Origin: Bacteroidales bacterium
Lineage (GTDB): Bacteria > Bacteroidota > Bacteroidia > Bacteroidales > WCHB1-69
Direction: 5' to 3'
Assembly (NCBI GenBank): GCA_024400775.1
Contig: JAKSMF010000004.1
Coordinates: 1 to 39,705, forward strand
DNA: 39,705 bases
Part shown: positions 1 through 36,308 of the stretch, piece after piece
How the letters are laid out: each line of letters starts with the position of its first letter
How positions within the stretch are numbered: the first letter of the stretch is position 1
The notes under the pieces: model-generated
What the model was told of the DNA's origin: nothing
Database searches by the model: none
What the model saw: the letters and a program-made list of their open reading frames with translations, nothing else
Program-made: the position numbers and the translations under genes

Positions 1-224
1 TGAAAGACGACCTCTCGAACTTTCTTAACACGGACTTTATTTTGTAGTTATCAAATGAAATTATTCCCTCTAATCCAAGTTCCGTAAATTCTGACTTTTC
101 CTGATTTTGGTTGACACTTTTTGATTAGTTTATACTAATTTTGTTGACATGTTTCCTAAAGGTTGAAACAAGAAATGCGTAGGAAATTTTCAATTTTCAA
201 TTTTCAATTTTCAACTTCCTTGCA

Positions 225-255
225 ATTTCCTCTATCACGCCGAAAGGCGGAATTT
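225..255. repeat. Dispersed hairpin repeat, copy 1
   Basis: An ATTTCCTCTATC core is followed by a small GC hairpin (CGCC-GAAA-GGCG) and then GGAA. A near-identical copy lies at 15146-15173, far away in another intergenic region. The two copies share the flanking order as well as the hairpin, so chance resemblance is unlikely. Confidence 0.5.
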
Positions 256-256
256 C

Positions 257-314
257 ATTATCCCTTGGTTTAATTGTGCTTATCAAAAGGCATTACAAGA
301 CGAAAAGGGATAAT
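257..314 (-). terminator. Long-loop inverted repeat after the lipoprotein/GH16 cluster
   Basis: ATTATCCCTT (257-266) is exactly complementary to AAGGGATAAT (305-314), separated by 38 bases. It sits directly downstream of the last lipoprotein gene on the minus strand, so it could end the leftward transcript. There is no clear U-tract, which makes intrinsic termination uncertain. Confidence 0.3.
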
Positions 315-318
315 TCTG

Positions 319-693
319 TTATTCTTTGATTTTTTTGCATTTGTAAATGTAATTGTCTTCAGGATAGTAGTACAAATAGTATGGTAATTCCAAGTAGTTC
401 CGATTCTTGAAAGAACCACCTATCCTGTAATCCCAGTCCAATTTGCATAATTCGATATCTCCGTTTTTATGTACTTGAGAATTCAGGAGGACCCCATTCC
501 CAATAGTGATAAGAATACTGTCTTGGCCATATTTATTGACGGATAGGGTTCCCGTGCCGTGCAAGTACGGTCCGTGCCAGTGCTCATATTCATATTCTCC
601 CACCCACTTATCACGGTAGTCGTAGTCTTTCCCGCAACTGTTAAAAATAATCAACATGCTGATTGTCAGTAAAAATAAGATTGATTTTTTCAT
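319..693 (-). CDS. Small lipoprotein, paralog 1 of 5
   Basis: This 124-residue protein has a lipoprotein signal peptide with lipobox FNSC and lipidation Cys20, so it is expected to be anchored in a membrane facing the periplasm or the cell surface. After the Cys comes the family block KDYDYRDKWVGEYE. The rest is a Tyr/Trp-rich, beta-strand-like body ending in a KCKKIKE tail. It is very close to paralog 2 (1006-1380) over its full length and shares only the first ~35 residues closely with the 140-residue paralogs. It is the last gene of the leftward cluster and starts 12 bases after the severed T9SS tail, just as paralog 5 starts behind the intact S74/T9SS gene. Function is unknown; a small beta-barrel or glycan-binding role is only a guess. 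Confidence 0.8.
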   Translation of the reverse strand: MKKSILFLLTISMLIIFNSCGKDYDYRDKWVGEYEYEHWHGPYLHGTGTLSVNKYGQDSILITIGNGVLLNSQVHKNGDIELCKLDWDYRIGGSFKNRNYLELPYYLYYYPEDNYIYKCKKIKE

Positions 694-705
694 GATTAAA
701 GAAGA

Positions 706-851
706 TTATTTGGTTAATACCATTTGTTTGGTTTCGCTGGTCTGGCCATCACCGGTAAGCAGGTAGGCGTAAATGCCGGCAGATAAAGAAGGGCGTTCTT
801 CTCTCCAACCATGGCCTGTTCGGAGCGTATGTTTGGAGGATGAGCCGTCAG
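706..851 (-). pseudogene. Remnant of a T9SS C-terminal sorting domain
   Basis: Reading leftward to the stop at 706-708, the frame encodes SLSAGIYAYLLTGDGQ and ends QMVLTK. This is identical to the end of the S74/T9SS protein at 3796-4677. Upstream of the shared part the residues differ, and the frame has no start codon or signal peptide of its own. It abuts the stop codon of the truncated GH16 stub at 852. It is therefore a severed 3' end left by deletion or recombination. The downstream spacing to paralog 1 matches that between the intact T9SS gene and paralog 5. Confidence 0.75.
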
Positions 852-1001
852 TTATTTATCCCACAAATTTGAATTGAAAACCGACATGTCATCCTCAAAC
901 AAGATGTTCCATCCGCGCAAGTCTTGGTTGGGAAGTCTCTGGCTAAACATACACAATGGGATAGCCCCCAATATTATAAATGTAATGATTTTCGTTTTCA
1001 T
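852..1001 (-). pseudogene. N-terminal stub of a second GH16 enzyme
   Basis: The frame begins at ATG 1001 with a signal peptide and runs 49 codons to TAA at 852-854. Residues 20-42 (RLPNQDLRGWNILFEDDMSV) match the intact GH16 at 1870-2913 except for Thr replaced by Leu. It then ends at ...NLWDK, before any catalytic residue, and runs straight into the T9SS tail remnant. It starts 4 bases after paralog 2 ends, matching the lipoprotein-GH16 order of the intact copy. It could still be translated as a short secreted peptide but cannot be an enzyme. Confidence 0.8.
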
Positions 1002-1005
1002 AACG

Positions 1006-1380
1006 TTATTCTTTGATTTTTTTGCATTTGTAAAAGTAAATGCTTCTAGGATCGACAGACCAGTAGTATGTTAATTCCAAGTAGTTCCGATTTTTGAAAC
1101 ATCCCGACATTCTGTAATCCCAGTCAAATTTGCATGGTTCGATATCTCCGTTTTTATGTACTTGAGAATTCACGAGTACACTATTCCCAATAGTGATAAG
1201 AATACTGTCTTGGCCATATTTATTGACGGATAGGGTTCCCGTGCCGTGCAAGTACGATTTGTGCCAGTGCTCATATTCATATTTCCCCACCCACTTATCA
1301 CGGTAGTCGTAGTCTTTCCCGCAACTGTCGAAAATAATTAACGTGCTGATTGTCAGTAAAAATAGGATTGATTTTTTCAT
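1006..1380 (-). CDS. Small lipoprotein, paralog 2 of 5
   Basis: This 124-residue predicted lipoprotein has lipobox FDSC (Cys20) followed by the family block KDYDYRDKWVG. Its body, including HGTGTLSVNKYGQDSILITI, is nearly identical to paralog 1 (319-693). Divergence is concentrated in the last third, around YWSVDPRS versus YLYYYPED. It lies 39 bases downstream of paralog 3 and directly upstream of the GH16 stub, so it occupies the second slot of a duplicated lipoprotein-lipoprotein-GH16 cassette. In the other cassette copy this slot holds a clearly different protein (paralog 4), which suggests replacement or conversion between paralogs. Function is unknown. Confidence 0.8.
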   Translation of the reverse strand: MKKSILFLLTISTLIIFDSCGKDYDYRDKWVGKYEYEHWHKSYLHGTGTLSVNKYGQDSILITIGNSVLVNSQVHKNGDIEPCKFDWDYRMSGCFKNRNYLELTYYWSVDPRSIYFYKCKKIKE

Positions 1381-1419
1381 GATATGGCATTTTTTTTCAA
1401 TAGATATTGACTTATCGCA
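1381..1419 (-). repeat. Duplicated intergenic spacer, copy B
   Basis: The spacer between paralogs 3 and 2 is almost identical to 3324-3361, between paralogs 5 and 4, and the similarity continues into the 3' ends of the adjoining genes. It is the non-coding signature of the tandem cassette duplication. The offset between copies is about 1942 bases. Confidence 0.8.
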
Positions 1420-1842
1420 TTATTTTTTGATTCTTTTGAATACATAAGTAGATGAGTATTCGCCACCTGAATCTATATCATAGGCCGTTAACGTAAAGCT
1501 GTTCCGGCTTTCGAAACGTCCTGACCAACAGTTGTTGTTCCAGATGTACGATTCAGGCACTCTAATAGTTCCGTCTTTCAGCACTTGAAAAAAGTAATAA
1601 TAAACTTTAGTTTCTAATGGGTCGTAGTCGGTCACACGTGTAATACCAATCAGGACGCTGTCTTGGCCGTGTTTGGCCACGCCAGCTGGCAAGATCATTT
1701 TAAAGTATGAGCCTCTCCATTCATCTTCAAATACCCTTTCATATTCCCCCACCCACTTATCACGGTAGTCGTAGTCTTTCCCGCAACTGTTGAAAATAAT
1801 CAACGTGCTGATTGTCAGTAAAAATAAGATTGATTTTTTCAT
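1420..1842 (-). CDS. Small lipoprotein, paralog 3 of 5 (140-aa type)
   Basis: This 140-residue predicted lipoprotein has lipidation Cys20 and is nearly identical to paralog 5 (3362-3784). Both carry FEDEWRGSYFKMILPA, KHGQDSVLIGITRVTDY and QVLKDGTIR in the same positions and end in KRIKK. Differences cluster at residues 54-56, 73-83 and in the last 25 residues. It starts 27 bases after the GH16 gene ends and is first in cassette copy B. The N-terminal 35 residues are shared with the 124-aa paralogs, the rest is not. Function is unknown; co-transcription with a secreted glycan hydrolase suggests an envelope role. Confidence 0.8.
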   Translation of the reverse strand: MKKSILFLLTISTLIIFNSCGKDYDYRDKWVGEYERVFEDEWRGSYFKMILPAGVAKHGQDSVLIGITRVTDYDPLETKVYYYFFQVLKDGTIRVPESYIWNNNCWSGRFESRNSFTLTAYDIDSGGEYSSTYVFKRIKK

Positions 1843-1869
1843 GATTAGAGATTTTTATAAAACAAAATG

Positions 1870-2913
1870 CTATCGACACTCATTGTGGATATCAATGTAC
1901 AGTTCGGCGCCAAGCGGCACGTTGAAACCTGCTTCCAACTTTACGAAATCGGTGGCATAGAGCACAATGTTGCTGTTTTGCGGAATGGTTGTGTTCCCAT
2001 TCAATGTGATGGATTTTTTCGTTTTCCAATTGTATGTGCTAAAGTCTATGGGGTGGTCCGAATCAATCACCACGTTTTTGTCGGTGCAGTCCAGCTGATA
2101 ACCATTGACCTGATCCACATACATCGTGTTGACGTCGTTAGCGGGAGGAAAATTATTATCTTCTTCCTTAGAATTTGGCTTCAGGGCGAGGTTGATAAGC
2201 AACCACATGGGATGATGAATCCCAATTCTGCCATAGGTGTTGCTCTCCTCACGTATGACACTTCGGTCCAAATACCAAATAATTTTATTTCGGGTCCATT
2301 TTACGCCGTACCAGTGGAAGGCGGAAGAGTATTGGCACGCAAAATCCTGCTTTTCGTCATGCCGATTACCACTACTATCGATAGGATATACGAAGCCATA
2401 ATGTCGGTTACAAGTCAACGAATTTGTTATTTTCCCGTCACCTTCAAACACGTCAATTTCATTGTACCAAGGATTGTTTGGGGAGTCGTTGGCATCCCAA
2501 AACCAAAAGGCGGGCCAGCATCCCCTGCCGACGGGAAGCTTTGCATAGATTTCGTAGTAGCCGTACTGATATTTCACTTTTGAGGAAATTTCCCCAGACG
2601 TATATTCGTGCTGTCCTAAATAGTAACAGCCTTGGTGATTATGAATGACGGGAGGTACCTCTTTGTGTGTGCGCAACACCAATTTCCCGTTTTCTATTGT
2701 GCAATTGCTTGGCATATAGATTTCAGGTTCTTCTCCCGTGCCCGTTCCACGCGTCACCAAGCTGTCTTTTTGCCAAACATTATCGTCGAAAACCGACATG
2801 TCATCCTCAAATAGGATATTCCATCCGCGTGTGTCTTGGTTGGGAAGTCTCTGAGCGGACAGGTACAACGGGAAACTTGTTATAACAATAACTATGATTA
2901 TTCTGACTCTCAT
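1870..2913 (-). CDS. Secreted glycoside hydrolase family 16 protein
   Basis: GH16 enzymes cleave beta-1,3, beta-1,3-1,4 or related glucans and galactans with retention of configuration. The chosen start at 2913 gives a 347-residue protein with signal peptide (MRVRIIIVIVITSFPLYLSAQ). The active-site strand reads NEIDVFEG, with nucleophile Glu152, Asp154 and acid/base Glu157: the E-x-D-x-x-E form with a bulge that laminarinases use. WPAFWFWDAND and the later FHWYGVKWT and WLLINLAL segments also fit GH16. The C-terminal ~60 residues (NGNTTIPQNSNIVLYATDF and on) resemble the coat-hanger-type domain found at the end of many Bacteroidota secreted proteins, not a T9SS tail. Its ATG overlaps the stop of paralog 4 (ATGA), implying translational coupling. 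A longer frame starts at 2934 but lacks a better signal peptide. The exact glucan cannot be read from sequence. Confidence 0.9.
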   Translation of the reverse strand: MRVRIIIVIVITSFPLYLSAQRLPNQDTRGWNILFEDDMSVFDDNVWQKDSLVTRGTGTGEEPEIYMPSNCTIENGKLVLRTHKEVPPVIHNHQGCYYLGQHEYTSGEISSKVKYQYGYYEIYAKLPVGRGCWPAFWFWDANDSPNNPWYNEIDVFEGDGKITNSLTCNRHYGFVYPIDSSGNRHDEKQDFACQYSSAFHWYGVKWTRNKIIWYLDRSVIREESNTYGRIGIHHPMWLLINLALKPNSKEEDNNFPPANDVNTMYVDQVNGYQLDCTDKNVVIDSDHPIDFSTYNWKTKKSITLNGNTTIPQNSNIVLYATDFVKLEAGFNVPLGAELYIDIHNECR

Positions 2914-3323
2914 TTCTGTTTTGATTTTATACAATAATAATATTTTTTAATGGTCTGTGCAGAAGCTTGGTATTGGTATGTCATATAAAGACTATCTCGC
3001 TTAATGAATGTTCCGGAAAATCCCTTTCTATTACCATTGTAAAGAGTTCCATCTTTCTGTACTTGAGCATGAATTTCTATAGGGAACGGATTTTCAGCCC
3101 ACCAGCCATCGGGATCATGATAAACGAGGTTGATACCATCTTTGTCCAACTTTTCAATATACCACGTCTCTTGATTTTCATCTGTATAATTGCGCGGATA
3201 TTCTTGTATAACTCTGCACTGATATTCTCCCAGCCATTTATTTCTGTAGTCGTAACCTTTCCCGCAACTGTTGAAAATAATCAACGTGCTGATTGTCAGT
3301 AAAAATAGGATTGGTTTTTTCAT
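2910..3323 (-). CDS. Small lipoprotein, paralog 4 of 5 (divergent body)
   Basis: This 137-residue predicted lipoprotein has lipobox FNSC (Cys20). The first ~35 residues follow the family pattern, with substitutions (KGYDYRNKWLGEYQ). The body is unrelated in detail to the other four: it has an acidic/aromatic stretch with DPDGWWAENPFP, then QVQKDGTLYNG, GTFIKRDSLYM and a YYYCIKSKQK tail. The tail and the QV.KDG element sit where the other paralogs carry equivalent pieces, so the fold is probably shared. It occupies the second slot of cassette copy A, and its TGA stop overlaps the GH16 ATG by four bases. Function is unknown. Confidence 0.8.
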   Translation of the reverse strand: MKKPILFLLTISTLIIFNSCGKGYDYRNKWLGEYQCRVIQEYPRNYTDENQETWYIEKLDKDGINLVYHDPDGWWAENPFPIEIHAQVQKDGTLYNGNRKGFSGTFIKRDSLYMTYQYQASAQTIKKYYYCIKSKQK

Positions 3324-3361
3324 GATATGGCATTTTTTTCAATAGATATTGACTTATCGCA
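3324..3361 (-). repeat. Duplicated intergenic spacer, copy A
   Basis: This is a near-identical counterpart of 1381-1419, lying between paralogs 5 and 4. It contains the same GATATGGCATTTTTT start and TAGATATTGACTTATCGCAT core, with one fewer T in the T-run. Confidence 0.8.
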
Positions 3362-3784
3362 TTATTTTTTGATTCTTTTGCATACATAAGTATATGAGGA
3401 GTCATGACCTGAAAGCATACCATAGGCCGTTAACGTAAAGCTGTCCCGGCTTTCAAAACGTCCCGCCCAGCAGGTCTGATATCCGATGTACGATTCGGGC
3501 ATTCTAATAGTTCCGTCTTTCAGCACTTGAAAATAGTTATAAAATACTATAGTTTTTAATGGTTCGTAATCGGTCACACGTGTAATACCAATCAGGACGC
3601 TGTCTTGGCCGTGTTTTTCCACGGTAGCTGGCAAGATCATTTTAAAGTATGAGCCTCTCCATTCATCTTCAAATACCCATTCATATTCTCCCACCCACTT
3701 ATCACGGTAGTCGTAGTCTTTCCCGCAACTGTTGAAAATAATCAACGTGCTGATTGTCAGTAAAAATAAGATTGATTTTTTCAT
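3362..3784 (-). CDS. Small lipoprotein, paralog 5 of 5 (140-aa type)
   Basis: This 140-residue predicted lipoprotein is the close twin of paralog 3. The open frame extends upstream to 4000, but only inside the neighbouring gene. The ATG at 3784 starts the family signal peptide MKKSILFLLTIS and is the proper start. Lipidation Cys20, the KDYDYRDKWVGEYE block, KHGQDSVLIGITRVTDY and the KRIKK end are all present. It starts 11 bases after the S74/T9SS gene, so the two are probably one transcript. It heads cassette copy A. Function is unknown. Confidence 0.8.
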   Translation of the reverse strand: MKKSILFLLTISTLIIFNSCGKDYDYRDKWVGEYEWVFEDEWRGSYFKMILPATVEKHGQDSVLIGITRVTDYEPLKTIVFYNYFQVLKDGTIRMPESYIGYQTCWAGRFESRDSFTLTAYGMLSGHDSSYTYVCKRIKK

Positions 3785-3795
3785 AATTAAAGAGG

Positions 3796-4677
3796 TTATT
3801 TGGTTAATACCATTTGTTTGGTTTCGCTGGTTTGTCCGTCCCCGGTAAGCAGGTAGGCGTAAATGCCAGCAGATAATGAAGACGCTTGTATCTGAATGTT
3901 CACGTTTCCACGCTCGTTTATGGCTATGCTCTTTACCATATTGCCGCCCATATCGTAAATTCTTAACTGAACGGAACGAATGCTTTCTGGAATGAAGCAC
4001 TGAATTGTAGTAACTTCATTGAACGGATTTGGGGCGTTCTGCCAAACGGATAATTGATAGCTACTCATATCCGTATAAGCGTTCTTGTCCAATATACCAT
4101 CAAAATCTTGATTCTGCAACAACATAGCCAGCTCTTTTTGCAAGTTTTCTATTTGTGCTTGCTGCTCTTTCACTGCGCAAATCAAAAATGGAATGAGCTG
4201 GTCATAGTCCACCACTCGAATCCCCTTCACTGTATCTACAATTTCAGGTATGATTCTCTCTACTTCCTGTGCCAAAACACCATACTCTTTTATTCCTTGC
4301 TGTGCTTGCTCTTCTTTATAGCAGTATGAATAGGCACCAATTTTATTCAAAACCTCAAACGGATTGTTGATGGGAAGGACATCGGATTTCAGTATGCTGT
4401 CGGAAGTCCTGGAAAATTGTCTGGCTACCAATTCGTTGTAGCCGGCATTCGTGTGCCAAAACACGATTGCGGAATTGCTGTTCCCGTCATATCCTCCAAT
4501 TTCCAGTTCCGCAATTTTGGGTTTGAAGGTGAAATTGTGTGTGCCTTGGGTGATTTGGAAGCGGCAGGTTGGTGCGGCTGGACCTATTCCTACACAGCCG
4601 TCACTCGTCACCTGAATTTGAGCCATGGCTATTCCGCTCATTATTAGCAATATTGTTATCAATAAAATTTTTTTCAT
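3796..4677 (-). CDS. Secreted S74-chaperone-domain protein with T9SS sorting tail
   Basis: This 293-residue protein has a signal peptide ending ...GIAMAQ. Residues ~90-185 match the S74 intramolecular chaperone/peptidase domain known from phage tail spikes and some bacterial surface proteins. SDSILKSDV carries Ser92 and Lys97 with the family's five-residue Ser-to-Lys spacing; YGVLAQEVERIIPEIV and VVDYDQLIPFLICAVKEQ follow, leading into a short coiled coil (QQAQIENLQKEL). The usual Arg of the SDxRLK motif is Ile here. Residues ~207-293 form a type A T9SS domain (NAPNPFNEVTTI ... GIYAYLLTGDGQ). In phage the S74 domain assists trimerisation and is then cleaved off; here it sits before the sorting tail, so cleavage would separate the N-terminal ~90 residues from the tail. 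It is the first gene of the leftward cluster. Confidence 0.8.
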   Translation of the reverse strand: MKKILLITILLIMSGIAMAQIQVTSDGCVGIGPAAPTCRFQITQGTHNFTFKPKIAELEIGGYDGNSNSAIVFWHTNAGYNELVARQFSRTSDSILKSDVLPINNPFEVLNKIGAYSYCYKEEQAQQGIKEYGVLAQEVERIIPEIVDTVKGIRVVDYDQLIPFLICAVKEQQAQIENLQKELAMLLQNQDFDGILDKNAYTDMSSYQLSVWQNAPNPFNEVTTIQCFIPESIRSVQLRIYDMGGNMVKSIAINERGNVNIQIQASSLSAGIYAYLLTGDGQTSETKQMVLTK

Positions 4678-4910
4678 TATTTTGAGATTTCGTTAAACAT
4701 TAAAAAAACGCTCGTTCCGCAATGAAAAAGGGCATCTATTTGTGAATAGAGATACGCCTTTTATTCAACTTTTGCATGCCAATTTTTCTGTTATGATTTG
4801 GACATGGAACTTTCACTATTAGATCTTCTTACATGGGGAGTGGGTCAATCAAAATCAATTGCGAACTTACAAAACTTGAATTATTTATTATTCGTTATTC
4901 ATTACTCTTT
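4678..4910. other. Upstream region of the S74/lipoprotein/GH16 cluster
   Basis: I see no convincing gene. A plus-strand open frame covers 4798-5163 but has low-complexity, non-protein-like composition. No TAnnTTTG element lies within 45 bases of the 4677 start, so the cluster may be transcribed from further right. An A/T-flanked imperfect hairpin lies at 4725-4762. Confidence 0.5.
4725..4762 (-). terminator. Imperfect A/T-flanked hairpin
   Basis: AAAAAGGGCATCTATT pairs imperfectly with AATAGAGATACGCCTTTT around a four-base loop. On the minus strand it is followed by CCCTTTTTC, so it could end an RNA transcribed leftward from about 5046, or act as an attenuator before the S74 gene. The stem has bulges. 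Confidence 0.35.
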
Positions 4911-5046
4911 GCTCCGTCACCGGTCATGCGCATCGCGGCGGAGCACTACACAAGGAAGTTGTTCTTCCCCAAGCGCTGAAGGCTGTAAGTGTAGCTTTGT
5001 ATTAAAACGGAAAGCTGATCCATGGGGCTCCTTTCATTTTCAAACA
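4911..5046 (-). ncRNA. Candidate structured RNA (unrecognised)
   Basis: Downstream of a minus-strand TAATTTTG element (5053-5060), the predicted transcript can fold into a three-helix junction. A closing helix pairs GCTCC 5027-5031 with GGAGC 4940-4944. One arm pairs 4994-4998 with 5011-5015. A second arm pairs 4946-4951 with 4989-4994 (sharing a base with the first arm) and carries an inner perfect hairpin, GGAAG/CTTCC at 4954-4968. A competing helix pairs 4911-4916 with 4939-4944 and would break the closing stem, as in a switch or attenuator. It does not match tmRNA, RNase P or SRP signatures that I know. It could be an sRNA or the leader of the S74/GH16 cluster. Covariation is untested. 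Confidence 0.35.
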
Positions 5047-5052
5047 GCGAGG

Positions 5053-5060
5053 CAAAATTA
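5053..5060 (-). promoter_or_regulatory. Bacteroidota -7 promoter element (leftward)
   Basis: The minus strand reads TAATTTTG, matching TAnnTTTG. It would start a leftward RNA near 5046, covering the structured-RNA candidate and possibly reading into the S74 gene about 370 bases away. Confidence 0.45.
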
Positions 5061-5309
5061 CAATTTTATCTTGTTGTTTTGTCACTCAGAAGAAAATTTT
5101 TTTCATTGCCAATTCGCCGTTTCCACTATATCCCACGGTGGAGGGCATCGCTTGTCTTTTTAGGTGAAATTTCGTGATCCCCGAGTCCGGAACTTGGCGA
5201 AGAAAGTCACAAGTCTTCTAACAAGCAGATAAAACGGATGTTTCCGTTGTTAAAACGGACTGTTGATACTATTTAAAAGGAAAAACTCGCTCCGTTTTAC
5301 TTTTTTTAT

Positions 5310-5317
5310 TACTTTTG
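5310..5317 (+). promoter_or_regulatory. -7 promoter element of the bcd-etfBA operon
   Basis: TACTTTTG matches the Bacteroidota TAnnTTTG consensus and lies 90 bases upstream of the acyl-CoA dehydrogenase ATG. The T-rich sequence around it is typical of these promoters. Confidence 0.65.
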
Positions 5318-5406
5318 CAACCGATTTTTAAATTGAAGGGAAACTGCAATCTCTCTTCAGTTTATTGTTCATTTTGTCACTAAATTAAAATCATAATAAA
5401 AACAAC

Positions 5407-6546
5407 ATGGATTTCAGTTTATCAAAAAAAGAAGAACTGTTCTTGCAGATGATCAGAGAATTTGCACAGAACGAAGTCAAACCGCTTGCAGCGGAAGTTG
5501 ACGAGGAAGAGAAATTTCCTATTGAAAACGTGAAGAAGTTGGGTAAATTAGGTGTCATGGGCATCCCGGTTCCCGTAGAATACGGCGGCCAGGGTGGTAC
5601 GAACCAGATGTACTCGATGGCAGTGGAAGAGCTTTCACGCGTTTGCGCCACCACCGGCGTCATCGTTTCCGCTCACACTTCACTCTGTATCGCCCCCATC
5701 ATGGAACACGGTACCGAAGAACAAAAGAAAAAATATGTGCCGAAACTCGCTTCCGGCGAATGGATTGGCGCTTTCGGCCTCACCGAACCCAACGCCGGTA
5801 CCGACGCCGCCATGCAGCAGACCACCGCTGTTGACGCCGGCGACAAATGGATCCTCAACGGCTCCAAGATTTTCATCACCAACGCCAGCGAAGCCAATGT
5901 TTTCGTGGTAATGGCCATGACCGACAAGTCAAAAGGCACGAAGGGCATTTCCGCTTTCATCGTTGAAAAGGGTTTCAAAGGTTTCAGCATCGGTAAGAAA
6001 GAAATGAAGATGGGTATCCGCGGCAGCGCTACCTGCGAATTGATTTTCGAAAACTGCGAAGTTCCGAAGGAAAACCTCCTCGGCGAACTCGGCAAGGGGT
6101 TCAAAATCGCTATGATGACGTTGGACGGCGGCCGTATCGGTATCGCTTCACAGGCTCTCGGTATTGCACAAGGTGCTATGGATGAGACTGTTAAATACAC
6201 CAAAGAACGTAAACAGTTCGGCAAGGCCATCGCTAAATTCCAGAACACCCAGTTCCAAATGGCCGACCTCGAAACCAAAGTCCAGGCCGCTCGTTTGCTG
6301 GTTCGTTCCGCCTCTTACAAGAAAGATATGCACCTTCCTTACTCAGCAGATGCCGCCATGGCAAAATTGTTCGCTGCTGAAACCGCAATGGAAGTAACCA
6401 CCAAGGCCGTCCAATTCCACGGCGGTTACGGTTACACCCGCGAATATCCGGTGGAAAGAATGATGCGCGACGCCAAGATTACCGAAATCTACGAAGGCAC
6501 CAGCGAAGTCCAGAGAATGGTTATCGCAGGCAAATTGTTCGCTTAA
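5407..6546 (+). CDS. bcd: Acyl-CoA dehydrogenase, butyryl-CoA dehydrogenase type
   Basis: This 379-residue FAD enzyme interconverts short-chain acyl-CoA and enoyl-CoA; in anaerobes it usually reduces crotonyl-CoA to butyryl-CoA together with EtfAB. The FAD/substrate signatures GAFGLTEPNAGTDA and ILNGSKIFITNA are present, as are the arginine-containing ERKQFGKAIAKFQ helix and the C-terminal EIYEGTSEVQR, whose Glu363 aligns with the catalytic base of clostridial butyryl-CoA dehydrogenase. Length is normal for the family. It heads an operon with etfB 36 bases downstream and etfA next, the classic Bcd-EtfBA arrangement. Codon use is GC-rich compared with the left cluster, consistent with a highly expressed core gene. 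Exact chain-length preference cannot be read. Confidence 0.9.
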   Translation: MDFSLSKKEELFLQMIREFAQNEVKPLAAEVDEEEKFPIENVKKLGKLGVMGIPVPVEYGGQGGTNQMYSMAVEELSRVCATTGVIVSAHTSLCIAPIMEHGTEEQKKKYVPKLASGEWIGAFGLTEPNAGTDAAMQQTTAVDAGDKWILNGSKIFITNASEANVFVVMAMTDKSKGTKGISAFIVEKGFKGFSIGKKEMKMGIRGSATCELIFENCEVPKENLLGELGKGFKIAMMTLDGGRIGIASQALGIAQGAMDETVKYTKERKQFGKAIAKFQNTQFQMADLETKVQAARLLVRSASYKKDMHLPYSADAAMAKLFAAETAMEVTTKAVQFHGGYGYTREYPVERMMRDAKITEIYEGTSEVQRMVIAGKLFA

Positions 6547-6582
6547 TTAATGATATTGATAATTGAAAATTAAAAAACAGAT

Positions 6583-7368
6583 ATGAAAATTGTAGTTTGT
6601 ATCAAACAGGTTCCGGATACGACCGAAATCAAAATCAACCCCGCGACCGGTACGTTGATTCGCGACGGTGTTCCGAGCATTATGAACCCCGACGATAAGG
6701 GCGGCCTCGAAGTAGCCCTCCAACTGAAAGACAAATTTGGCGCACATGTCACCGTAATCACCATGGGACCTCCGCAGGCGGAAGCCATTTTGCGCGAAGC
6801 CATGGCTATGGGCGCTGACCGTGCCATCCTCCTCACCGACCGCAAGTTCGCAGGTGCCGACACTTTGGCCACTTCCAACGCTTTGGCCGGCGCGCTCCGC
6901 AACATCGAGCACGACCTCATCATCACCGGCCGTCAGGCCATCGATGGCGATACCGCCCAGGTGGGCCCGCAAATCGCTGAGCACCTCCACACTCCGATGA
7001 TTTCCTACGTTGCCGGAGTTGACTTCGACGGTAAGAACCTGCTCACTGTCAAGAAGGAAGACGAAGACGGCTACCAGATGCTGGAAGTTCACACGCCCGC
7101 CGTCCTCACCGTGTTGGCATCCGCTTTCACACCGCGTTACATGACCGTCAAAGGCATCATTGAAGCTTACGACCAGAGAGAAATCGAAATCTGGACCGCT
7201 GAAAAGATTGATGTTGACGAAGCAAAACTCGGTCTCAACGGCTCGCCCACCCGCGTGAAGAGATCCTTCACCAAACCGCAAAAGGTTGCCGGCGAAGTAT
7301 TCGACGTCACTCCGGAAGAAGCCGTCGATCTCATCGTTTCCAAATTGAAAGAAAAATTCATCATCTAA
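6583..7368 (+). CDS. etfB: Electron transfer flavoprotein subunit beta
   Basis: This 261-residue ETF beta subunit pairs with EtfA to carry electrons between acyl-CoA dehydrogenase and other carriers. The N-terminus (MKIVVCIKQVPDTTEIKINP) and the TLIRDGVPSIMNPDDKGG, VITMGPPQAEAILREA and ITGRQAIDGDTAQVGPQ segments closely follow the EtfB of clostridial Bcd-Etf complexes, the bifurcating kind that uses NADH to reduce crotonyl-CoA and ferredoxin. The length also matches that group. It is co-transcribed with bcd. Bifurcation is inferred from family resemblance; the flavin environment would need structural comparison. Confidence 0.95.
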   Translation: MKIVVCIKQVPDTTEIKINPATGTLIRDGVPSIMNPDDKGGLEVALQLKDKFGAHVTVITMGPPQAEAILREAMAMGADRAILLTDRKFAGADTLATSNALAGALRNIEHDLIITGRQAIDGDTAQVGPQIAEHLHTPMISYVAGVDFDGKNLLTVKKEDEDGYQMLEVHTPAVLTVLASAFTPRYMTVKGIIEAYDQREIEIWTAEKIDVDEAKLGLNGSPTRVKRSFTKPQKVAGEVFDVTPEEAVDLIVSKLKEKFII

Positions 7369-7373
7369 GGAGG
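7367..7373 (+). promoter_or_regulatory. Strong Shine-Dalgarno of etfA
   Basis: AAGGAGG overlaps the etfB stop codon and sits seven bases before the etfA ATG at 7381. Canonical ribosome binding sites are uncommon in Bacteroidota, where A-rich leaders are usual, so this one stands out and fixes the etfA start. Confidence 0.7.
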
Positions 7374-7380
7374 TTCAACA

Positions 7381-8388
7381 ATGGATAAATCAAGTTACAA
7401 AAATATATTCGTATTCGTTGAGCAGCGCGACGGCGTCATCCAGCCCGTCGGTCTCGAACTGCTCGGCAAGGCCCACGAACTCGCACAGATCCTGGGCGAA
7501 AAGGTTGTCGCCATCTTCCTCGGCCACAACATCAAGAACCAATGTCAAACCCTTATCGAGTACGGCGCCGACGAAGTCATCGTTTCCGACTGCCCCGAAC
7601 TGAAGGACTATTTGACCGAACAATATTCACAGGCCATCTCACAGATTGTTGCCAAATATTTACCGAGCATCATTCTGTTTGGCGCCACCACCATCGGCCG
7701 CGATCTCGGTCCGACCCTTTCCGCACGTTTGGCCACCGGTTTGACCGCCGACTGCACCAAATTGGAAATTTCCGAAGAGAAGGAACTGATGATGACGCGT
7801 CCCGCTTTCGGTGGCAACCTGATGGCTACCATTATGTGTACCGAACGCCGTCCGCAGATGTCAACCGTCCGTCCGGGCGTGATGCAGAAGATGACGCGCG
7901 GCGCTTCCCGCAGGGCTGAGGTCGTTGAGTTCACTCCCGCATTCGAGGCCAGCAAGTTCGCTGTCAAGCTCGTGAAGAAGGTGAAAGCCGACAAGGGCAA
8001 AATGGACATCACCGAGGCCAAGGTTTTGGTTTCCGGCGGTCGTGGCGTTGGCTGCAAGGAAGGTTTCGAAAAACTCGGCGCTCTCGCACAGACCTTGAAC
8101 GGACAGGTTTCATCCTCCCGCGCCATGGTTGATGCCGGCGTGATGCCGCACGATGTACAGGTTGGCCAGACCGGTAAGACCGTCCGCCCGAACCTTTATA
8201 TGGCCATCGGTATTTCAGGTGCCATCCAGCACTTGGCCGGTATGGAAGAATCCGACCTCATCATCGCCATCAACCGCGACAAGGATGCTCCCATCTTTGG
8301 CGTTGCCGACCTCGGCGTTGTGGGCGACTTCAACAAGATCGTTCCGCTGTTGAACGAACGCTTGCAGAAGGAAATCAGCGAGAAATAA
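7381..8388 (+). CDS. etfA: Electron transfer flavoprotein subunit alpha
   Basis: This 335-residue ETF alpha subunit binds FAD through its C-terminal domain. VSGGRGVG, SSSRAMVDAGVMPHDVQVGQ and TGKTVRPNLYMAIGISGAIQ form the FAD-binding half, and ESDLIIAINRDKDAPIFGVA closes it. The N-terminal domain (VFVEQRDGVIQPVGLELLGK, GATTIGRDLGPTLSARL) is typical. It begins 12 bases after etfB behind a strong Shine-Dalgarno and is followed by a terminator, so it closes a three-gene operon with bcd. Length and order match clostridial-type Bcd-EtfBA. Confidence 0.95.
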   Translation: MDKSSYKNIFVFVEQRDGVIQPVGLELLGKAHELAQILGEKVVAIFLGHNIKNQCQTLIEYGADEVIVSDCPELKDYLTEQYSQAISQIVAKYLPSIILFGATTIGRDLGPTLSARLATGLTADCTKLEISEEKELMMTRPAFGGNLMATIMCTERRPQMSTVRPGVMQKMTRGASRRAEVVEFTPAFEASKFAVKLVKKVKADKGKMDITEAKVLVSGGRGVGCKEGFEKLGALAQTLNGQVSSSRAMVDAGVMPHDVQVGQTGKTVRPNLYMAIGISGAIQHLAGMEESDLIIAINRDKDAPIFGVADLGVVGDFNKIVPLLNERLQKEISEK

Positions 8389-8414
8389 AGAGATTTTTCT
8401 CCACAATTTAGTAA

Positions 8415-23963: not shown

Positions 23964-24025
23964 GATTATTTTCGGTTGCAACCGAAAATAATCACAATTA
24001 TTTTCGGTTACGACTGAAAATAGGA
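23964..24025. promoter_or_regulatory. Two palindromic operator-like sites
   Basis: A perfect 30-base palindrome, half-site GATTATTTTCGGTTG, spans 23964-23993 between and across the -7 and -33 positions. A second, imperfect dyad with the same ATTATTTTCGGTT half-site follows at 23999-24023. The arrangement suits a dimeric repressor binding two sites. The regulator is unknown. Confidence 0.6.
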
Positions 24026-24110: not shown

Positions 24111-26684
24111 TTATCTCTTCACGAATTTCTGTACCATCGTCTGACCGTTGGTGGCGACTTTTACAAAGTAAATGCCAGCTTCAAGCGTTGAGACGTTAAT
24201 GGCAGTTTGTTCGCCTTGTGCGGTCGTGCTAATGACTTTCTGTCCGGTGACATTGAAGATTTCCACCATCTCCATTACCTGACCGCAACGCACATTCAAA
24301 ACGTCGTTGGCAGGATTCGGGAAGATGATAATCTGGCTCTTTGAATATTCGTTGATGGCGTCGGGATTATCTCCGCCACCATTGTTGTAAGTCCCCGTCT
24401 GGCTTGCCGACCAGTGGCTGTCGTTGTTGGCGCTGCAGATGGCCTGTACGCGGAATGTGACCACATCACCGTTGTTCAAACCCGGAACCTGGAAGCAGCT
24501 GCTGGCTACGGTTACAACTTGTTCTGCACTACCGTTAACGCTGTAGGCCACATTCCAACTGGTGGCAGTGCTCACCCAGCAGATGTTGCCGGTTTCGTCC
24601 ATCGAAATGTTGGTGGGTACTTCGCACGGATCTTCTTGTGTGCCGCTACCCGTATAGGTGAAATCTTGTGAATTGGTCCAGGCACTTGTATTGGTGCTGC
24701 TGCAAACCGCCTGCACCCGGAAGGTGACGATATCGTTGTTGTTCAAACCGGGCACTTGGAAACAGCTGTTGTTGACGGTCACGATTTGTTCGGCGCCTCC
24801 GTTGATACTGTAACCCACATTCCAACTTGAGGCATCGCTGTTCCAACAGACGTTTCCGTTGTCGTCCATTGTCACGTTCGTCGGAACGTCGCACGGCTCT
24901 TCTGTTGAAACGTGGAAAGCAACGTAAATGTCGTGGTTGTTGGCGATGTTGGTCAACGTGTAAAGGTTGTTGCTGACGTTGGCGGTAACGTCCATCGTGT
25001 TGTCGGTGACGTAGTCGATGGCATAGCCGGCATTCGGTGTGATGGTGAAGGTTTGTGAAGCGCCGCCAACCACGGTGGTATTGGTCGGGCTGATAGTGCC
25101 GTGACCATCGGTGCTGCCTGTCAGCGTGTAGGTCTGACTAGCATCCTGCGTGAAGGCGACAAACACATCGTGATTCTGCTGGATGTTGTTGATAGTGTAG
25201 GTGTTATTCACTACCGAAGCAGTAACATCGACAGTGTTGTCGGTCACATAATCAACAATATATCCTGGATTTGGTGTGAAGGAGAAACTGCGATTGCTGC
25301 CGCATTGTGCGGTGGTGTTGGTCGGTGAAATATTACCGTTGCCACCGGTGCTTCCCGTCAAAGTAAATGATTGCGTATTGTAAGTCACCTGGAAGGTGTG
25401 GTCGCTGGTGACATTATAGAAAGTGTAAGTGTTGTTCACCACCTGACTGAGGACGCTGACGCCATCGGCCAGCACGTCGTTGATGGTCGCGCATGCGGAG
25501 GGTGTGATGGTGAAAGTCTGTGAGTTGCCGTCGATTACGGTTACATTGCCGCTTGGCGTAATGGTGCCGTCGGTATTCAGTACCGTAATCACGTGGTTGC
25601 TGGTGGTCGGCCCTTCGAAGGTTACGGTCAGGCAACCCGTGTTGTCGCTCGGGTCGTTTTCGTACCAGCCTGGTCCAGGCATTACCTGCATGCAGAAGGT
25701 GTGTGTGCCGTAAAGGTTGTAGGTCGCAATATCAGATGCGGTTAAGGCGATGAAATCATCCCAATAGACACCGCCGCCGGTGGCGATGTAGGTGGTGCTT
25801 GCACCGGTGCTGCCCATTGGCGTGCCGTCGATTGTCATTTCGAAATGCAATGTGTCGTTAAAGTCATTGACAGCAGCACCGTACTCGAAGTTCCAAACCA
25901 CGGGGACAGGCATGAAATCGTTACCATAGGGAACGTTCATACTTGTGATGAAATTCTGGTTGTCGCCGTCGTCAATGTACTCCAGACCAAGGTCGATAAT
26001 AGGATCGTTGCCGTTCGGATCGTAAACGTAACCCTTAATGCCCCAGTTGCCCACGGTAAAGCTGAGCCCGATGCTGTTGATGTCATACCAGGCCATATCT
26101 TCTGAATCATAATAAAGAGTGCCTTTGCCCGTGGTAACATTGTATTCGTCGTACGACATCAGCAGGCCGGCGCCGTTGTGAATATAAACGCCGAACCAAA
26201 GTTCTTGCGATGAGTTAATGGTCACTGGCGTGTTAAGAGTGACTTCGGTCCAGTCGTCCAACATGACGGAGTAGGAGGGAACGGTTTGTGAAGCCACCAG
26301 CGTGCCGGGAGACATCGAAGTGCCAGAACTGTACATACCGCCTTGATAGACGCGTACTTCGTACGTTCCGTAAATAGGATATTCGTAGCTGTCCCACAAA
26401 TAGAAGGCCACTTTTGTTAACGAAAGTCCGTTGTACGGTGCAAGGTCGGAGGTGGAAAAACGCTGCATGCAGGCCAAATCAAACGGGTCACTTGGATCGT
26501 CGTTGATGATACCGCTGGTGAGCGAAGTCTCATCGGCCCAAGTTATCCAGCTGGAGTTGCGCTCCTGTTGCAAAGCAGGTGCATTTGCCGGACGTGTTGC
26601 CGACTGCAGATTGTGTTGCGCAAAAACCGGCATTGCCGCTACTAAAAATGCGCAAAATACAAAAAGGGATAACAGTCTTTTCAT
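24111..26684 (-). CDS. Large T9SS-secreted protein with repeat domains
   Basis: This 857-residue protein has a signal peptide (ending ...AAMPVFAQ). The N-terminal ~230 residues form a lectin- or jelly-roll-like region (WITWADETSL, ELWFGVYIHNGAGLLMSYDE). Three ~75-residue repeats follow, of the kind 'G.G.ISPTNTT...FTPNPGY.VDYVTDN...VNNTYT..NI...HDV.VAF' (about residues 365-590), similar to InlB/Listeria-Bacteroides-type repeats. Two fibronectin III-like repeats of ~84 residues then share SWNV.YS.NG.AEQ and SCFQVPGLNN. A type A T9SS domain ends the protein (IIIFPNPANDVLNV to QKFVKR). It is probably a surface adhesin or secreted scaffold. No catalytic motif was seen. Confidence 0.8.
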   Translation of the reverse strand: MKRLLSLFVFCAFLVAAMPVFAQHNLQSATRPANAPALQQERNSSWITWADETSLTSGIINDDPSDPFDLACMQRFSTSDLAPYNGLSLTKVAFYLWDSYEYPIYGTYEVRVYQGGMYSSGTSMSPGTLVASQTVPSYSVMLDDWTEVTLNTPVTINSSQELWFGVYIHNGAGLLMSYDEYNVTTGKGTLYYDSEDMAWYDINSIGLSFTVGNWGIKGYVYDPNGNDPIIDLGLEYIDDGDNQNFITSMNVPYGNDFMPVPVVWNFEYGAAVNDFNDTLHFEMTIDGTPMGSTGASTTYIATGGGVYWDDFIALTASDIATYNLYGTHTFCMQVMPGPGWYENDPSDNTGCLTVTFEGPTTSNHVITVLNTDGTITPSGNVTVIDGNSQTFTITPSACATINDVLADGVSVLSQVVNNTYTFYNVTSDHTFQVTYNTQSFTLTGSTGGNGNISPTNTTAQCGSNRSFSFTPNPGYIVDYVTDNTVDVTASVVNNTYTINNIQQNHDVFVAFTQDASQTYTLTGSTDGHGTISPTNTTVVGGASQTFTITPNAGYAIDYVTDNTMDVTANVSNNLYTLTNIANNHDIYVAFHVSTEEPCDVPTNVTMDDNGNVCWNSDASSWNVGYSINGGAEQIVTVNNSCFQVPGLNNNDIVTFRVQAVCSSTNTSAWTNSQDFTYTGSGTQEDPCEVPTNISMDETGNICWVSTATSWNVAYSVNGSAEQVVTVASSCFQVPGLNNGDVVTFRVQAICSANNDSHWSASQTGTYNNGGGDNPDAINEYSKSQIIIFPNPANDVLNVRCGQVMEMVEIFNVTGQKVISTTAQGEQTAINVSTLEAGIYFVKVATNGQTMVQKFVKR

Positions 26685-29591: not shown

Positions 29592-29626
29592 AAAAAAAGT
29601 TCTCTTAAAAAGAGAACTTTTTTTTT
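29592..29626 (+). terminator. Intrinsic terminator of pepD
   Basis: A-run plus GTTCTCT pairs with AGAGAAC plus T-run around a TAAAA loop. Nine T residues follow the GC part. Its U-tract runs directly into the promoter of the next gene. Confidence 0.9.
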
Positions 29627-36257: not shown

Positions 36258-36308
36258 AAATCAGGTTGCTAAAATAGGAAAAATTTCCCAATTATAGCAA
36301 CCTGATTT
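36258..36308 (-). terminator. Intrinsic terminator of secDF
   Basis: AAATCAGGTTGCTA (36258-36271) is exactly complementary to TAGCAACCTGATTT (36295-36308). On the minus strand the 14-bp stem is followed by six U. It lies between secDF and the PorE-like gene, only 24 bases before the latter's ATG. Confidence 0.85.

Follow-up and report, generated by a model that had tools for sequence, protein, structure and literature searches.

Introduction

In the Erp genes of Borrelia, recombination has joined one promoter, leader and localization sequence to many bodies (PMC10016077), and the tandem lipoprotein paralogs of the Staphylococcus aureus lpl type are thought to shuffle via a conserved segment (PMC4470592). 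The literature that we searched held nothing relevant on leader/body lipoprotein arrays in Bacteroidales. Here we analyse five small lipoprotein genes near one end of the window, the whole 39,705-nucleotide stretch of Bacteroidales DNA under study (contig JAKSMF010000004.1), whose nearest parallel among known systems is the Erp family of Borrelia burgdorferi (OspE/OspF/Elp, also called the 'upstream homology box' family). We consider it probable that the locus is an expanded module of secreted-protein genes, in which recombination has produced leader/body chimeras encoding predicted barrel lipoproteins with a putative binding role.

Results

Five complete lipoprotein genes surround a GH16 gene

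The five lipoprotein open reading frames (A to E) lie on the minus strand at 319-3784, and each is complete, with an ATG start, a signal peptide, a lipobox with Cys20 behind the signal peptide, and a stop codon. A GH16 glycoside hydrolase gene sits between C and D, and upstream of E lies the gene for a protein that combines Peptidase_S74 with a type IX sorting tail (S74/T9SS). The features of the array are as follows.

319-693, minus: lipoprotein A, 124 aa
319-588, minus: A body (124-aa type), 80% identical to the B body (71/89) and about 30% to the C and E bodies
589-693, minus: A constant leader (signal peptide, lipobox Cys20, DYDYRDKWVGEYE), 1 synonymous change relative to the E leader, breakpoint at +105
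686-791, minus: relic of an S74/T9SS gene 3' end (LSAGIYAYLLTGDGQTSETKQMVLTK, then stop), matching 3776-3881
852-1001, minus: relic of a GH16 5' end (49 codons, then stop)
1006-1380, minus: lipoprotein B, 124 aa
1006-1275, minus: B body (124-aa type), from self-comparison and body alignment
1276-1380, minus: B constant leader, with upstream DNA as in D and body as in A
1420-1842, minus: lipoprotein C, 140 aa
1420-1737, minus: C body (140-aa type), 78% identical to the E body (81/104)
1738-1842, minus: C constant leader, in the block 1279-1851
1870-2934, minus: GH16 glycoside hydrolase (Pfam PF00722, E 8e-20), probable ATG start at 2913
2910-3323, minus: lipoprotein D, 137 aa
2910-3218, minus: D body (137-aa type), the most diverged body
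3219-3323, minus: D leader, close to the other leaders only over about 22 codons
3362-3784, minus: lipoprotein E, 140 aa
3362-3679, minus: E body (140-aa type), predicted eight-stranded barrel
3680-3784, minus: E constant leader, from identity bins
3796-4677, minus: protein with Peptidase_S74 and Por_Secre_tail (type IX sorting) matches, encoded by the opening gene of the module (Pfam PF13884, E 7e-11; PF18962, E 2e-9)

None of the lipoproteins A to E scored above a curated cut-off in Pfam or NCBIfam, and the best hit of a PDB profile search had an E-value of 0.33; the C-terminus of the GH16 protein gave a weak GCX_COOH match, below cut-off. No RNA families were found in the array region, and scans of the region for Bacteroidetes-type and sigma-70 promoter patterns returned matches at chance numbers only. 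The source genome is a 2.1 Mb draft of 164 contigs with a listed completeness of 80% and a listed contamination of 0.1%, and the array, which begins 318 bp from the contig end, may extend past the assembly.

Some further observations concern the window at large. Its first part (1-5400) has a G+C content of 36-42%, compared with 48-57% in the adjoining genes (5400 to 8400); we take these neighbours (5407-8388) to encode an acyl-CoA dehydrogenase and an electron-transfer flavoprotein. A 213-nt direct repeat (24424-24636 / 24691-24903, 74% identity) lies within a large open reading frame, and self-complementary, palindromic stretches occur at 36258-36308, 23964-24022 and 29592-29624.

The bodies belong to one predicted barrel family

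The bodies of the 124-aa and 140-aa types were about 30% identical, well above shuffled sequences, while the D body was marginal in direct comparison and its alignment with the A body was not significant. With a profile built solely from outside relatives, each of the five bodies was detected (E-values from 2e-11 to 4e-6 at a search-space size of one), which ruled out that the bodies are unrelated. Judged from these comparisons, the three body types have diverged from one another within a single domain family.

AlphaFold2 modelled both mature E (pLDDT 87, pTM 0.80) and mature D (pLDDT 78, pTM 0.71) as eight-stranded antiparallel barrels, in agreement with the common fold that the initial annotation had proposed to look for, and the bodies, of about 100 residues each, are all predicted to form calycin-like barrels of this kind. 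Both models gave weak structural matches to lipocalins, avidins and designed barrels, and matched Bacteroides lipoproteins such as BT2261 (5fq6_E), on which 102 residues of D align at 2.5 A (Z 10.5) and 109 residues of E at 4.1 A (Z 8.7); since de novo beta barrels score equally high, these matches speak for fold and not for function. The array bodies represent an unnamed family of barrel lipoproteins tied to GH16 and to the S74/T9SS protein.

Elsewhere, the barrel domain was found doubled in one polypeptide (L107:3406-4113, L108:3257-3979 and L056:4951-5661) and, in L109:603-1223, fused behind an immunoglobulin-like Big_2 domain; because of this latter fusion we regard the domain as modular. 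A sixth, solitary lipoprotein of the family is present in the window's own genome (L104:1585-2001, G000:C95).

A three-gene module recurs in related genomes

The order S74/T9SS gene, single lipoprotein, GH16 was found within the same genus in G001 (L055) and G012 (L058), and within the same family in G041 (L057), G042 (L064) and G053 (L059, L069). All GH16 matches in other genomes of the family (13/13) adjoin a lipoprotein of the profile, often together with an S74 gene, and beside the single GH16 match outside this bacterial family no adjoining profile lipoprotein was seen. The module lipoprotein of G001 had D as its best match, with E close behind. These gene orders suggest that the ancestral module had one lipoprotein. 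A scan of genome contigs for relatives returned a sole one, a Bacteroidales MAG (L118) with an S74 gene adjoining one lipoprotein, and another such scan found none. A phage or plasmid origin was rejected, as C was unmatched in phage records and E in plasmid records; in viral contigs, no exact match to the leader was found.

The constant company of GH16 bears on what the lipoproteins do. They might be self-protection or regulatory partners of the GH16 and S74 proteins (inhibitors or docking proteins, for example), whose copies diverge as their partners change, and both the adjacency in 13/13 cases and the replacement, in G061, of the second protein by other secreted proteins agree with such a role. 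Family members without a nearby GH16 or S74 gene (L104:1585-2001, L110, L112 and L115) speak against it, however, and we consider it unlikely. As a statement about function, this alternative does not conflict with the recombination history set out below.

Identity between body types ends at codon 35

Identity was scored pairwise between the genes in 15-nt bins from the ATG. Up to +105 (35 codons), pairs among A, B, C and E had 13-15 of 15 positions identical per bin; beyond +105, identity dropped sharply to chance level between body types (1-7 of 15), whereas it stayed at 12-15 of 15 within A/B and C/E. Over the first ~22 codons, 62 of 66 sites were identical in D, E and A, but the next 39 nt carried 9 changes private to D, which past about codon 22 matched the other leaders at 10-13 of 15 per bin and retains its own GYDYRNKWLGEYQ. 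The nearly invariant N-terminus of ~35 residues that the initial annotation had attributed to all five genes is therefore a property of A, B, C and E (about 105 nt), with D close only over ~22 codons; the three body types that it had distinguished (124, 140 and 137 aa) hold, and the breakpoint that it had proposed to look for near codon 35 is borne out by the drop at +105, downstream of which alone synonymous divergence is saturated.

Between A and E, synonymous differences amounted to 1 in 18.5 sites in the leader versus 34.5 in 53.8 sites in the body (p = 7e-6), and the A-C, B-C and B-E pairs gave a similar contrast (Fisher p 7e-6 to 1e-3). Within types, in contrast, leader and body had diverged equally (A-B, p = 0.72; C-E, p = 0.44). 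Because even synonymous sites vary little in the leader, yet are saturated with changes in the body, protein constraint or selection does not account for the constancy of the leader. As a control, the GH16 relic was compared with the intact GH16 gene: the mature part was identical at 58/66 nt and the signal peptide at only 34/63, so that signal peptides at this locus have no intrinsic conservation; likewise, signal peptides are unconserved among the module orthologs of G001 and G041. The dN/dS ratio of the bodies was about 0.7-0.8 (about 0.75), indistinguishable from neutral, which ruled against positive selection on the bodies.

Upstream DNA and bodies pair differently

Comparison of the window with itself resolved four blocks in the array. 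The first (1279-1851 ~ 3222-3793, 90.6%) aligns C and the B leader with E and the D leader; the second (318-696 ~ 1005-1383, 90.3%) aligns A with B and ends at the stop codon; the third (588-791 ~ 3679-3881, 94.6%) aligns the A leader and the S74 tail upstream of it with their E counterparts; and the fourth (876-941 ~ 2788-2853) aligns the GH16 5' relic with GH16. Upstream DNA pairs A with E and B with D, in conflict with the bodies, which pair A with B and C with E; C and E are alike upstream over only about 9 nt before the ATG, and no leader sites unite A with B. Since upstream DNA tracks the leader and not the body, several of the genes are chimeras joined inside the leader or at its end. 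The relics between B and A, a GH16 start followed by an S74 tail, are remnants of further copies of the module. The joining of leaders to bodies by recombination is well supported by the synonymous-site contrast and the conflicting pairings, and the recombination in the constant part that the initial annotation had suggested is upheld.

Other leaders show the same pattern

In G050 (L102), a run of five adjacent genes begins with the leader MKTLFKTIVLLLLSLLF-HCKPEPIEP, or with a variant form, and has bodies of two unrelated classes. At this locus the related genome G032 has one gene in place of five, with flanks that are identical on the left (300/300) and 97% identical over 2.5 kb on the right; the gene common to both genomes has a body that is 83% identical, and most pairs of G050/G032 leaders are 85-96% identical. 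G032 also carries the leader at two further loci with different bodies, as dispersed copies. In G057 and G061, an S74 end and the signal peptide that follows are about 90% identical, and behind this conserved stretch stand unrelated proteins (GH16a, GH16b or a 317-aa T9SS protein). Separately, L092:501-1082 and L092:1959-3161 encode proteins of 193 and 400 aa with a common signal peptide (MKHN-FFKALVLALLV) that are otherwise different.

Alternatives to chimeric duplication

Continuing gene conversion could homogenise the leaders, with silent or expressed cassettes giving antigenic variants within a population. Such a process would fit the sharp breakpoint at codon 35, the apparent receipt by D of the first ~22 codons only, and the differing cassette content of G050 and G032 at a comparable array. 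Against it, leader and body diverge alike within types, and for this reason a small number of chimeric duplications seems to us a better account than leaders that are converted continually; furthermore, the five genes are complete and lack an expression-site/silent-donor layout, there are no inverted repeats of at least 25 nt in 1-5400, and body dN/dS does not exceed 1. We judge this process improbable; the antigenic or specificity cassettes that the initial annotation suggested find no direct support in the intact copies, the lack of such repeats and the dN/dS ratio, and remain conjectural.

The fragmentation of the draft (164 contigs) and the closeness of the array to a contig end (318 bp) might raise the suspicion that, in a metagenome-derived genome, a mixed population was misassembled into an artefact. 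The copies, however, are at least about 10% divergent from one another, listed contamination is 0.1%, the relics and the gene order of the module are biologically sensible, and the pattern recurs in independent genomes, which leaves this explanation very improbable. Hardly credible at all is that A to E are old paralogs whose leaders were held by purifying selection on export: the leaders do carry a signal peptide, a lipobox and an export-like acidic block, but selection alone is ruled out by synonymous-site divergence, and the conflict of upstream and body pairings, the unconserved signal peptides of the G001/G041 orthologs and the less conserved signal peptide of the GH16 relic point the same way.

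Discussion

In the history of chimeric duplication that we prefer, the locus would derive from a family-wide module (S74/T9SS protein, small lipoprotein, GH16), of which it is a copy that expanded and was rearranged locally. Tandem duplication would have created repeated 5' segments, made of upstream DNA and ~105 bp encoding the signal peptide, the lipobox and the first mature residues, and homologous recombination between these repeats, presumably of the RecA type, would have placed one leader on different bodies, yielding chimeras of three body types. The barrels would presumably be held by their lipid on the outer membrane, probably exposed at the surface. The residues from the lipidated cysteine onwards (C-G-K-D-Y-D, with K at +3, D at +4 and +6, and Y at +5) fit in part the lipoprotein export signal (LES) of Capnocytophaga, C-X-K-(D/E)2-X after the cysteine (PMC5080379). 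Beside GH16, the barrels may bind ligands or glycans, and their diversity may broaden or change what is bound.

More tentatively, the 3' end of the S74/T9SS gene and the leader of the next gene could serve as a fixed joint or site of expression, with whole bodies of secreted proteins swapped behind it by homologous recombination, as a surface cassette system free of a recombinase. The bodies swapped behind this joint would be barrel lipoproteins, GH16 and other T9SS proteins, possibly diversified under selection by phage, host or glycan supply.

Among known systems, silent-cassette antigenic variation (vlsE/pilS) relies on one expressed gene and silent, incomplete donors, in contrast to five complete genes here, and shufflon-type inversion has inverted repeats bounding the variable segments, of which none of at least 25 nt occurs in 1-5400. 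The S. aureus lpl genes are likewise tandem lipoprotein paralogs, but what is conserved in them is a core inside the gene, flanked by variable 5' and 3' parts (PMC4470592), whereas in the array it is a 5' leader. BT2261, from a Bacteroides SusCD complex (5fq6_E), resembles the array proteins as a calycin-like barrel lipoprotein beside glycan-related proteins in Bacteroidales; sequence identity is about 10%, however, and no SusC or SusD genes were seen in the array module.

The likeness to Erp is one of organisation. As in Erp, a near-identical leader with the first mature residues stands on diverse, divergent mature bodies, the lipoprotein genes are intact, and there are several body classes. 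Erp genes, however, occupy a single allelic place on cp32 prophages behind a conserved promoter, whereas the array is a tandem, chromosomal-type module with GH16 and S74/T9SS genes, and C and E have no match in phage and plasmid records, respectively. The conserved promoter/operator upstream of each Erp gene is absent from the array, where upstream DNA varies between copies and is shared only pairwise (A/E, B/D), and the array bodies, unlike those of Erp, share one predicted fold. Leader-anchored body swapping, known from Borrelia Erp, thereby extends to uncultured gut-type Bacteroidales. If the barrels are surface-exposed, arrays of this sort might account for a fast turnover of binding proteins on the cell surface in gut communities.
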